From Nocardiopsis potens DSM 45234 (GTDB taxonomy: Bacteria; Actinomycetota; Actinomycetes; Streptosporangiales; Streptosporangiaceae): DNA of 64,000 nt. Position numbers and translations under genes: made by a program. Shown here one piece after another: positions 15,413 to 44,400 of this stretch; within the stretch, counting starts at the first letter, position 1; every line of letters begins with the position of its first letter. The stretch covers positions 124,001 through 188,000 of the forward strand of contig NZ_ANBB01000035.1 in the NCBI RefSeq assembly GCF_000341105.1, in the 5' to 3' direction. Below the pieces are notes generated by a model. That model saw only the letters and a program-made list of their open reading frames with translations, was not told the origin of the DNA and ran no database searches.

Positions 15413-15480
15413 CCCGATGGTCTCGACGTTCCGGGTCTGTCAATGCACGTTGACAGGCCCGGAACGTCGAGACCATCGGG
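15413..15480. repeat. Palindromic intergenic repeat, member 1
   Basis: Two 31-bp arms (15413-15443 and 15450-15480) starting CCCGATGGTCTCGACG pair with a single T:G difference around a 6-nt loop. The outer half shares the pattern TGRTCYYGACG with palindromes at 31,409, 34,958 and 51,823, and more loosely with 38,309. It lies between the convergent phosphodiesterase and kdpE genes and would form a very stable hairpin in both transcripts. Confidence 0.8.
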
Positions 15481-24666: not shown

Positions 24667-24781
24667 CGCTTTCCGCCCGGGCCCGCGTGTCCGCCCCGCG
24701 GATCCCGGCGGTCCCGGCGGGCCTGGCTGGACCGCCCGAGCGGCCGCCGCCCGCTCCGAGTGCTCCGGGAACCCGTTGCCC

Positions 24782-29893: not shown

Positions 29894-31381
29894 ATGCAGC
29901 CCGTGGTGGACACCGATGCCGGGCCCGTGCGCGGCTCCCTGCGGGACGGGGTGGCCGCCTTCAAGGGCGTGCCCTATGCCGCGCCCCCTGTGGGAGCGCT
30001 CCGCTTCCGGCCGCCCCGGCACCCCGCCCCCTGGGACGAGCCCCGGGACGCCACCCGCCCCGGCCCCACCGCCCCGGTACCCCCGCCGGAGCCCGGCCCC
30101 CGCATCCTCCCCGACCACCGGGTCCCCGGCGACGACTGCCTCAACCTCAACGTGTGGACGCCCGACCCCGGCCCGGCCGGGCTCCCGGTCCTGGTCTGGC
30201 TGCACGGCGGCGGCTTCGCCACCGGATCCGGCTCGCACCCGCTCTACGACGGCTCCGCCCTGGCCCGCTCCGGCGCCGTGCTGGTCACCGCCAACTACCG
30301 GCTCGGCGCCGAGGGCTTCGCCCTGCTCGACGGGGGCACCGCCAACCTCGGCCTGCTCGACCAGATCCACGCCCTGGAATGGGTCCGGGACAACATCGCC
30401 CGGTTCGGCGGCAACCCGCACCGGGTGACCGTCTTCGGGCAGTCCGCGGGGGCGATGAGCGTGATCACCCTGCTCTCGCTGCCGCGAGCCCGGGGCCTGT
30501 TCGTCCGGGCCGTCGCCCAGTCCGGGGCCGGGCACCACGTGCACCCGGTGGAGGACGCCCGCGCCGTCGCCGCGGAGCTGGCCCGCCGCGCCGGCGCGGC
30601 CGCGCCCACCCCCGAGGCGCTCGCCGAGGCCGCCCCGGACCGGGTGCTGGCCGCGCAGTCCTCCATCAGCGCCGAGTTCGCGGCCGGCGCCGACCCGGCG
30701 GTCTGGGGCGAGCGGCTGGCCGTGCCCGGGACGCTGCCGTTCGCCCCCGTGGTCGACGGCGGTCTGGTCACCCGGCGCCCCATCGACGGGCTGCGCGCGG
30801 GCGAGGGGGCCGGCGCCGACCTCATGGTCGGGACCACCGCCGAGGAGTTCCGGGTCCTGCCGGTGCCCGGCGGCGGGAACGGCGCGACCTCCGACCGGCA
30901 CGTCGCCGCGGGCGCGGCCGGGTTCGGGCTGGACGCCAAGGCGGCCGCGGTGTACGCGGCGGAGCACGGCGGCCGGGCCGGGGACGCGCTGACCGCGCTC
31001 TACGGCGACGCGGTCTTCCGGATCCCGGCCTACCGGGTGCTGGAGGCGCGGGCCAGGGTGGGCGTCCGGGTGTTCGCCTACGAGTTCGGCTGGCGCTCCC
31101 CGGTCGCCGGCGGGCGGCTGGGCGCCTGCCACGCGGTGGAGGTGCCGTTCCTCTTCGGCACCCTGGACACCGCCCCCGCCCTGGTCGGCGAGGACCCGCC
31201 GGAGGAGCTGGGCGAGCGGCTCCGCTCGGCCTGGCTCCGCTTCGCCCGCACCGGCGAACCGGGCTGGGAGCCGTGGAACCAGGAGCGCCGCCCGGTCTGG
31301 CGGTTCGACTCCCCGGAGTCCGCCCTGGTGGAGGACCCCGGCGCGGAGACCCGCCGGCTCTGGGAGGGCCGCCGCCTCTGA
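29894..31381 (+). CDS. Type-B carboxylesterase
   Basis: 495-residue serine hydrolase of the carboxylesterase/lipase type B family. FKGVPYAAPP is the family opening, DDCLNLNVWTP is signature 2, LHGGGF is the oxyanion loop and FGQSAGA carries the nucleophile S184. The catalytic His is H413 in GACHAVEVPFLFG. No signal peptide, so cytosolic. The N-terminus fits the family exactly at the ATG, with GAGGGAG 5-8 nt upstream. The gene is monocistronic, with the interrupted palindrome and inserted repeat element just downstream. Confidence 0.92.
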   Translation: MQPVVDTDAGPVRGSLRDGVAAFKGVPYAAPPVGALRFRPPRHPAPWDEPRDATRPGPTAPVPPPEPGPRILPDHRVPGDDCLNLNVWTPDPGPAGLPVLVWLHGGGFATGSGSHPLYDGSALARSGAVLVTANYRLGAEGFALLDGGTANLGLLDQIHALEWVRDNIARFGGNPHRVTVFGQSAGAMSVITLLSLPRARGLFVRAVAQSGAGHHVHPVEDARAVAAELARRAGAAAPTPEALAEAAPDRVLAAQSSISAEFAAGADPAVWGERLAVPGTLPFAPVVDGGLVTRRPIDGLRAGEGAGADLMVGTTAEEFRVLPVPGGGNGATSDRHVAAGAAGFGLDAKAAAVYAAEHGGRAGDALTALYGDAVFRIPAYRVLEARARVGVRVFAYEFGWRSPVAGGRLGACHAVEVPFLFGTLDTAPALVGEDPPEELGERLRSAWLRFARTGEPGWEPWNQERRPVWRFDSPESALVEDPGAETRRLWEGRRL

Positions 31382-31443
31382 CCGGCTCCCCGCCCCGCCC
31401 CCGGTGATCCGATGACCTTGACGTCGCGGCCCCGCCAGAGCGC

Positions 31444-32506
31444 TTGTCGTCAAGTGGTCGTTGCAACGAGGAGAACGAGGAAAAAGAGCAAAACGAGGAA
31501 AACGAGGAACTCGGGGAGGGGCGAAGAACGGGAGGTGCCCCACGGGGTGAGGGTTCAAGCGGGCGGCGACGGCGGCGGTGGGGGACCGGCTGGTCGGTCG
31601 GGTGCGGCGTCTCGCGGAGTGCAGGTTCAAGCGGGCGGCGACGGCTGGGAGGGGGACCGGCTGGTCGGTCGGGCGCGGCAGAGCGGGTGGGGCCGGCCGG
31701 GGCGGCGGGTTCGCCGTTCCCGCGTCGCCCGGGCGCCGGGGCCGACCGCCTCTGAAACCGCCGCACCTCTCTGACCTGAGTGAATACGCAGGGTGATGGC
31801 GGGCTGGGGCGCCCTGCACACCGCGAGAGCACCCCGGTGATTCCTGGGCGCGCATCCCGGCCCTGATGGGCCCTCCAAGAGCCCGAACGGGGCTGATCGG
31901 GTCGGTGATCGGGGGTTCGAGCCGCCCGCAAGGCCGGAAGGCAGGCGACCGGAGCCCGGGAAGAGCAGGAGTGGGGGCGAGATGTCGCTTTTGTTCTCCC
32001 GGGAGGCCTCACTTGGCCACTCTGTGTAATCGACAGGGGATAGTCGGGGCTCTGGGGGCTTACTACTCGCTGGTAGATGGCATCGGGGTGCCGCGGAGGT
32101 GCGCAGGGCGCGCCCGCCCCTCCTGCTCTCGCCGCCGGTTCGAGCCCTGGCTCCGTGGGGTGCCGTACCCGGGTGAGGCCTGCGCCCCGTCCCCGCCGCT
32201 GCCGTCGCCGCCGGCTTGAACCTTCGCTCCGTGGGGCGCCGCACCCGGGCGACTCCCGATGCCCCCGCCCCTCCTGTCCCCGCCCCTCCTGTCCCCGCCC
32301 CTCCTGCTCTCGCCGCCGGTTCGAGCCCTGGCACCGTGGGGTGCCGTACCCGGGTGAGGCCTGCGCCCCGTCCCCGCCGCTGCCGTCGCCGCCCGCTTGA
32401 ACCTGCACTCCGTGGGGCGCCGCGCCTGACCGACCAGCCGGTCCCTTCCTGCCCTCTGGTGTGCGGTGTTGCAGCGGTGTCGCAGTGGTGCCGCAACGGA
32501 AACCGG
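31444..32506. mobile_element. Inserted repeat element, copy A
   Basis: 1,063 bp flanked by the 7-bp direct repeat AGAGCGC (31437-31443 and 32507-32513). The left part holds purine-rich sequence (GAGGAAAACGAGGAA) and then two units of about 72 bp starting GGTTCAAGCGGGCGGCGACGG (31552 and 31624). A core follows (about 31,760-32,110), which is shared with the second copy at 43,760-44,110. The right part (32,126-32,430) holds the same units in reverse orientation. No terminal inverted repeat of the insert and no transposase is visible, so if mobile it is non-autonomous. Open frames in it shift between copies. Confidence 0.6.
32126..32394. repeat. 181-bp-period tandem duplication within copy A
   Basis: The block beginning CTCTCGCCGCCGGTTCGAG at 32126 recurs almost unchanged at 32307. 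Between them lies a 16-bp tandem repeat (CCCCTCCTGTCCCCGC, about 2.5 copies at 32,268-32,310). This is recent expansion of the right-hand array. Confidence 0.75.
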
Positions 32507-32566
32507 AGAGCGCCCGCTCTGACAGGACCGCAGCGTCGAGGTCATCGGGGGCGGGGCCGGTCCGGG

Positions 32567-33064
32567 TCAGGAGCGGTGGGCGGCTCCGGCGGAGGCGCGG
32601 CGGCGGGCGTCCTCGATGGCCTCCAGGGCCGCCGCGCGGTCCTGCCAGCCGCGGACCTCCGAGCTCTTCCCGGGCTCCAGCCGCTTGTAGATCTCGAAGA
32701 AGTGGTTGATCTCCTGGCGCTGGAACTCCGGCAGGTCGCGCAGGTCACGGATGTGCTCCACGCGCGGGTCGCCGGCCGGCATGCACAGCACCTTGGCGTC
32801 CGGGCCCTTCTCGTCGCGCATCCAGAACACCGCCACCGGGCGGACCCGGACCACGCAGCCGGGGAAGGACGGCTGCTCCAGCGCGACCATGGCGTCCAGC
32901 GGGTCGCCGTCCTCGGCCATCGTGCCGGGGAAGAACCCGTAGTCGGCCGGGTACTGCGTCGAGGTGAACAGGGTGCGGTCGAGCCGGATCCGCCCGGTCC
33001 GGTGGTCCATCTCGTACTTGTTCCGCGACCCCTGCGGGATCTCCACCACCATGTCGAGGTTCAT
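32567..33064 (-). CDS. ppa: Inorganic pyrophosphatase (family I)
   Basis: 165-residue soluble Mg-dependent enzyme hydrolysing pyrophosphate to two phosphates, pulling biosynthetic reactions forward. EIPQGSRNKYE and YPADYGFFPGT are present, as is the signature EDGDPLDAMV with metal ligands D52, D54 and D57. The length matches bacterial family I. ATG at 33064 is chosen because MNLDMVVEIP is the conserved family start; a frame 12 codons longer exists upstream. CAGCGT sits 6 bp before the ATG, a weak leaderless-type -10. The gene lies 50 bp downstream of poxB's stop on the opposite side, same strand. Confidence 0.95.
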   Translation of the reverse strand: MNLDMVVEIPQGSRNKYEMDHRTGRIRLDRTLFTSTQYPADYGFFPGTMAEDGDPLDAMVALEQPSFPGCVVRVRPVAVFWMRDEKGPDAKVLCMPAGDPRVEHIRDLRDLPEFQRQEINHFFEIYKRLEPGKSSEVRGWQDRAAALEAIEDARRRASAGAAHRS

Positions 33065-34853: not shown

Positions 34854-34957
34854 GGCGCCACGTTAGGAGCGGCGGCCCGGCTCGGGGGAGCCGGACCGCC
34901 GCGCCCCGCCGAGGTTTTCCCGCGGCTTTGCCTCGGCGCCCCGCCCTCTCCTCCCGA

Positions 34958-35014
34958 TGATCTTGACGTTGCGGGGTATCAGGGCGCTCTGTCACCCCCG
35001 CAACGTCAAGATCA
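34958..35014. repeat. Palindromic intergenic repeat, member 3
   Basis: Perfect 19-bp arms: TGATCTTGACGTTGCGGGG (34958-34976) and its complement (34996-35014), with a 19-nt centre that contains the self-complementary AGGGCGCTCT. It lies between the stop of the gamma-glutamyltransferase gene and the start of poxB; on the minus strand it is just upstream of poxB's neighbour, so it could terminate nothing but read-through from ggt in the other sense. Confidence 0.8.
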
Positions 35015-35033
35015 ACGCCTGCGGGAAGGGCGG

Positions 35034-38308: not shown

Positions 38309-38402
38309 CCCCGTTGATCTTGGACTTATCGACCGGTCCCGGTCTGCAGGCCTGTGCCGGTGAGCGGTCCCGGACCGGTCGATAAGTCCAAGATCAACGG
38401 GG
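38309..38402. repeat. Palindromic intergenic repeat, member 4
   Basis: Perfect 31-bp arms (38309-38339 and 38372-38402) starting CCCCGTTGATCTTGGAC, with a 32-nt loop, between two convergent P450 genes. It starts 11 bp after one stop and ends 18 bp before the other, an ideal bidirectional terminator. It shares TTGATCTTG-GAC with the other palindromes, but its inner arm (ACTTATCGACCGG) is different. Confidence 0.85.
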
Positions 38403-43389: not shown

Positions 43390-44400
43390 GGCGAGCAGGC
43401 GGCGACGGCGGAGGTAGGGGCGGAACCGGGCGCTCCGGCCGGGCGCGGCGCCTCGCGGAGTGAAGGTTCAAGCGGGCGGCGACGGCGGGGAGGGGCACCG
43501 GCCGGTCGGTCGGGTGCGGCGCCCCACAGAGCGAAGGTTCAGACGGGCGGCGACGGCGCCGGTAGGGGCGGGGCGAGGGTGGTCGCCCGGGCGCGGCGCC
43601 CCACGGGGCGGAGGTTCAAGCAGGCGGCGACGGCGGGGAGGGGCACCGGCCGGTCGGTCGGGTGCGGCAGAGCAGGTGGGGTGGTCGGGGAGGGCAGGGG
43701 GCGGCGGGTTCGCCGCGCCCGCGTCGCCCGGGCGGCGTGGCCGGCCGCTCCGGAAACCACTGCCCCTCTCTGACCTGGGTAAATACGCAGGGTGATGGTT
43801 GGGTGGGGTGCCCTGCGCACCGCGAGAGCACTCCGGTGATTCCTGGGCGCGCATCCCGGGCCGGATCAGCCCCCGAGAGGCCCGGATGGCCCTGATCGGG
43901 CCGGTGATCGGGGGTTCGAGCCGCCCGGAAGGCCGGGAAGCAGGGGGCCGGAACCAGGGTAGGGGCGGCGCGGGGGGCGAGATGTCGCTTTTACTCCCCG
44001 GGAGGCCTCGCTTTGGCCACTCTGGGTAACCACCGAGGGGGTAATGGGGGCTTCGGGGCTTACTACTCGCTGGTAGATGTAATCGGGGTGCTCCCGCGGT
44101 GTGCAGGGCTCGCCCGCCCCCGCCGCGAACCCGGCATAGGGGATAAGGCCCCTGGCGGGCGCGGGCGGGCCGCCCCGCCGCCGGCGCCGCCCCGCCCATT
44201 CCCGCCTTCGCTGCCCGTCTTGGCCTTCGCTCTGCGGGGCGCCGCGCCGGACCGACCGGCCGGTCCCCCTGCCTGCCGTCGCTGCCTGCTTGAACCCCGG
44301 CCCCGTGGGGCGCCGCGCCCGGGTGAGGAGCCCGGCCCCGCCCATTCCTTTGCCGTCGCCGCCGGTTTGAGCCTTTGCTCCGTGGGGCGCCGCGCTGGAC
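43390..44400. mobile_element. Repeat element, copy B
   Basis: Second copy of the element inserted at 31,444. Left array: units starting at about 43,393, 43,464, 43,537 and 43,613 (GGTTCAAGCGGGCGGCGACGG type, 72-76 bp each). Core: about 43,760-44,110, aligned with copy A with few gaps. Words identical in both copies include TTACTACTCGCTGGTAGATG (32,060 and 44,060) and GGGCGAGATGTCGCTTTT (about 31,975 and 43,975). Right array (about 44,210-44,400): units in reverse orientation. It lies between the conservon upstream region and the DUF397 gene. No direct repeat at the ends was found, and the palindrome arms that flank copy A are absent. Confidence 0.6.

Follow-up and report, generated by a model that had tools for sequence, protein, structure and literature searches.

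A non-coding composite repeat that may have entered the apex of REP-like palindromes in a Nocardiopsis-type genome

Several insertion sequences that target REP palindromes have been described in bacteria, namely IS1397, ISKpn1, IS621, ISPa11, ISPpu9 and ISPpu10 (Tobes and Pareja 2006, PMC1525189), and they constitute the closest parallel to the composite repeat reported here, in that multicopy extragenic palindromes appear as preferred insertion sites. In contrast to these insertion sequences, the composite repeat possesses facing tandem arrays and a core predicted to be structured, most of its copies lie outside palindromes and it encodes no transposase, for which reason we do not consider it a member of that group. 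A second point of reference is provided by bacterial MITEs (reviewed in PMC10969869), which are likewise non-coding, multicopy and intergenic and the inverted ends of which may have a counterpart here, whereas the composite repeat is about 0.8-1.7 kb long, combines a conserved core with variable arrays, shows no target duplication and is often devoid of its ends. The palindromes themselves resemble REP/BIME sequences in being numerous (an estimated 14-19 per Mb), short, intergenic and near-perfect, and differ from them in their length of 64-70 bp and in the absence of a spacer at the apex. Such a length exceeds that of the REP units in the literature, and the palindrome-targeting elements known to us carry their own transposase.

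The window analyzed here is a 64,000-nucleotide stretch (G000:C35:124001-188000) of a 6.9-Mb draft actinomycete genome, termed G000, the named relatives of which are Nocardiopsis chromatogenes, N. suaedae and N. endophytica. Copy A of the composite repeat occupies the gap between two convergent genes, coding for a carboxylesterase (29894-31381, plus strand) and ppa (32567-33064, minus strand). Its insert of about 1.07 kb is flanked by two palindrome halves (type A arms) of 34 nt each, at 31409-31442 and 32515-32548, which are 82% complementary to each other. Every coordinate of the preliminary description proved correct. The flanks have an inverted-similarity score of 24.5, while 2000 dinucleotide shuffles averaged 9.4 and never exceeded 16.5, ruling out a chance origin of the match. 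Read on the plus strand, the insert comprises a Y-type end linker (31444-31533) with AACGAGGAA-like 9-bp tandem repeats, two forward units of about 72 bp (31534-31679), a conserved core of about 338 nt (31753-32089), reverse-orientation units on the minus strand (32113-32434), in which a 141-bp stretch occurs twice with 94% identity, and an X-type end linker (32446-32514) with extra bases private to copy A, GGAGAGCG, ahead of CCCGCTCTG. An inner inverted repeat is found around the core, with a 39-nt left arm at 31801-31839 and its partner at 32081-32119. No gene was found in copy A, and the open reading frames of the core copies are mechanical only. The tandem repeat of the Y linker, located at 31465-31518, is purine-rich and varies in length from copy to copy.

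At least 58 core copies, copy A included, are present in a 1.2-Mb sample of G000 that was picked mostly around such copies. Forward units lie to the left of the core in 58 of 58 copies, and reverse units follow closely on its right unless the copy is truncated at a contig end or by an insertion sequence. Farther outward the linker types X and Y occur, which are nearly always followed by a half-palindrome. Only nine unit matches are distant from any core, eight of them at contig ends. The cores are all about 313-346 nt long and non-coding, and none of them showed a transposase, an absence that counts against insertion into palindromes. The preliminary description had reported no inverted ends, which holds for copy A taken alone and not across copies, as the outward ends of X (..GTGTTGCAACGGGCACTGGAAACCACC) and Y (..CGTTGCAACGGCCACTTGACGACAAG) have GTTGCAACGG.CACT in common; the remnants of these weak ends in copy A are GTTGCAAC at 31460 and GTTGCAGC at 32468. 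With regard to terminal inverted repeats of the MITE type, the palindrome arms could qualify as well as the X and Y ends, and they are present on both sides in ten copies only. The window holds a second copy (43451-44388, plus strand), the ends of which lack half-palindromes. A DNA search with the core in 299 genomes of the family returned matches only in G000 and in a sister genome, G002, none were found in plasmids and viral contigs, and a literature collection searched for comparable Nocardiopsis repeats yielded nothing relevant. Two further differences between these genomes were observed: about 93 bp at 24681-24774 of the window correspond in G002 to a 1.26-kb element copy (L191:15787-17044), and the orthologous elements L125:10002 and L211:17547-17870 have cores in opposite orientations, an arrangement that core inversion through recombination of the facing arrays would be expected to produce.

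The core is plausibly a structured RNA, as judged from its predicted folding. On the plus strand, the consensus fold of the G000 cores has an energy of -92.6 kcal/mol, versus -65.7 +/- 4.4 for shuffled columns, and that of the G000 and G002 cores combined reaches -40.6 versus -18.8 +/- 4.5, whereas the minus strand folds near its shuffled values; moreover, a hairpin at alignment columns 70-96 has paired changes. Assignment of the core to a known RNA family was rejected, since the Rfam 15 covariance models returned only a tRNA at gathering score across the whole window and matches at chance level near copy A.

The palindrome family to which the arms of copy A belong, as the preliminary description had correctly recognized, comprises 22 intact members in the G000 sample, a count that rests on our own filter. 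They are near-perfect and mostly 64-68 bp long, with private variants present on both sides, and share a 12-bp apex, which reads CAGAGCGCTCTG or departs from it without a change in length; L168:1926-1989, for instance, is a perfect 64-bp palindrome. Two intact members lie in the window, at 15413-15480 and, in imperfect form and without a counterpart in G002, at 34954-35017. A palindrome of type B, with extra apex sequence, is located at 38309-38402; in its stem, a T-A pair and a G-C pair distinguish it from its G002 ortholog, a double change that is compensatory. About ten intact palindromes were found in the 730-kb sample of G002 and none in 138 kb from four other relatives, and their gain and loss between G000 and G002 is fast.

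Of the 113 element ends, 30 have an outward half-arm no more than 200 bp away, as opposed to 1.6% of random intergenic points (an enrichment of about 16-fold). Ten copies, eight from G000 and two from G002, have halves on both sides, and all ten join them at the apex, so that a fixed position within extragenic palindromes is found for this subset. Linkers X and Y each adjoin arms of types A and B at the same apex point. Furthermore, both halves of copy L147 carry a rare GCGTTG variant, also found in the intact palindrome L145:3605-3668, and both halves of copy A carry GGTCATCG. The excess of half-arm ends, the apex joins to several palindrome subtypes and the variants common to both halves all support insertion into palindrome tips, which we consider likely for the composite-repeat family. 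As for copy A itself, we put at roughly one in two the probability that it is a decayed member of this family, inserted at the apex of a REP-like palindrome. The palindrome would have come first; the composite repeat would later have entered its apex, splitting it into the present halves and bringing along its own weak inverted ends, Y on the left and X on the right, through the action of an enzyme supplied from elsewhere in the cell. In about half of the G000 copies neither end has a palindrome, and this counts against such a process, although loss of ends with time can explain such copies: G002 L173 has X and a half-palindrome on its left side, which its G000 ortholog L113 lacks.

The preliminary description had gone further, proposing a transposition into a hairpin tip that duplicated 7 bp of target. 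While the apex junctions, the enrichment and an orthologous palindrome described below support the hairpin tip, the duplication is rejected at the family level. AGAGCGC does flank copy A on both sides, precisely at 31437-31443 and 32507-32513, and these are its only occurrences in 31301-32700; joining 31409-31436 to 32507-32548 yields CCGATGACCTTGACGTCGCGGCCCCGCCAGAGCGCCCGCTCTGACAGGACCGCAGCGTCGAGGTCATCGG. It recurs, however, in none of the nine other two-sided copies, where direct repeats spanning the junction reach no more than 3-5 nt, and 90 mismatched left-right pairs used as a control gave repeats of 3-6 nt and, once, of 8. A 7-bp duplication also needs an original apex CAGAGCGCCCGCTCTG, and neither this sequence nor any apex of the form CAGAGCG-NN-CGCTCTG, including the CAGAGCG-CC-CGCTCTG that had been rebuilt for copy A, occurs in the 22 intact G000 palindromes. 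Hence, that exact model appears highly improbable. X ends elsewhere read GGAAACCACC followed by CGCTCTG, whereas copy A reads GGAAACCGGAGAGCGCC followed by CGCTCTG, which marks the right AGAGCGC as a private addition; more likely, the X end was altered locally, and the adjacent CGCTCT may have served as template. No consistent direct repeat of the kind left by MITEs was found at the junctions of the ten two-sided copies, which again counts against insertion, and comparison of these junctions with CAGAGCGCTCTG suggests that any duplication would not have exceeded some 2-4 bp (CG or GCGC), as opposed to 7.

An uninterrupted palindrome at the copy A site of relatives had been expected as confirmation of the insertion, and the full insert in all of them as its contradiction. 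Neither the palindrome nor the element is present at this site in G002, G003, G004 or G005: the two genes abut in the last three and are separated in G002 by about 495 bp of unrelated sequence, while G001 has apparent insertion-sequence debris. Both expectations failed in the genomes compared. The same double absence is seen in G002 at L159, L138, L163 and L147, and in G000 at the site of the G002 two-sided copy L179; at L143, G002 has unrelated gene sequence. The lack of both palindrome and element in the sister genome, at copy A as well as at most other two-sided loci, counts against tip insertion. On the other hand, the two-sided copy L121 faces, between the same genes of G002, an uninterrupted palindrome (L202:14646-14707), and the G002 region orthologous to L144 has an imperfect type B palindrome, both of which count in its favor. 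The L121 ortholog is suggestive, not proof, of a putative insertion, given that an estimated 2.7% or so of the intergenic gaps in the G002 sample would hold an intact palindrome and one match among nine loci would arise by chance with a probability of about 20%.

The homology between copy A and G002 ends at about 31399 and restarts at about 32547-32549, that is, at the outer edges of the halves, and it breaks likewise at L163 (16505/17945) and on the right side of L121 (10954). These breaks would be expected if the halves were the terminal inverted repeats of the element itself, the 64-bp palindromes being miniature derivatives with the two ends joined, and if 31409-32548 had arrived together. 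The relatives devoid of both parts and the regular succession of linker and half-arm agree with such an origin, as does the similarity of the arms, which by plain score is not higher within copies than between them (p = 0.30). When rare variants are weighted, p = 0.083 is obtained, and copy A, L138, L163 and L179 rank first of ten. The halves of a perfect palindrome that had been split would be expected to match, and neither value is significant; arm similarity is weak support for insertion and leaves a real gap in its case. Yet the halves, joined as found, would give CAGAGCGCGCTCTG in place of the 12-bp apex CAGAGCGCTCTG of intact palindromes; a single linker joins arms of both types; and the near-perfect symmetry of intact palindromes, private variants included, is difficult to reconcile with two joined ends. 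Taken together, we regard a common arrival of halves and insert as a serious rival to tip insertion, though a less probable one.

Insertion into a pre-existing palindrome has also to be weighed against the rapid turnover of the intergenic regions in which the copies reside. Many loci differ between G000 and G002 by a complete replacement of their intergenic sequence, and the arms differ in type between the orthologs L113 and L173, a locus at which both genomes have the element. In G002, the X linker and half-palindrome at the left of L173 are nearly identical to those at the right of L179, even in the bases just outside the arm. All three observations could be accommodated if palindromes and repeats merely accumulated, recombined and converted between gene ends, with no single insertion event, but in ten two-sided copies the join lies without exception at the apex and involves the same linker ends, which makes such mosaic growth unlikely.

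The cores of dispersed copies have evidently been homogenized within each genome. Where G000 and G002 share an element locus, the flanks are mostly 84-97% identical and the orthologous cores only 63-80%, while G002 cores at different loci (L177/L178, L180-L183) are 95-100% identical over about 700 bp, with an identity that fades outward into the arrays and with differing outer arrays and flanks. These near-identical cores are consistent with gene conversion, which was preferred to fresh transposition because the identity fades gradually and because several of the loci have G000 orthologs in which an element is already in place. The exception is the pair L139:9701-10339 and L172:9666-10156, with a core identity of 92% and flanks of 94-95%; both are split by apparently the same insertion sequence, and an interrupted copy seems to have escaped further overwriting. 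Overwriting blurs the original junctions and weakens the arm comparisons.

We tentatively propose, with the separate parts standing as graded above, that the composite repeat represents an undescribed, multicopy family of non-coding and RNA-structured elements so far known from two close Nocardiopsis-type genomes, which would settle at the apex of long, perfect palindromes, its copies subsequently overwriting one another's cores by gene conversion. Since copies get overwritten, divergence cannot date sequence inside such repeats. If the proposal is true, a non-coding element with a palindrome-seating habit and dozens of copies would make it possible to test how insertions are drawn to hairpin tips and which forces lie behind the rapid replacement of sequence among dispersed copies.
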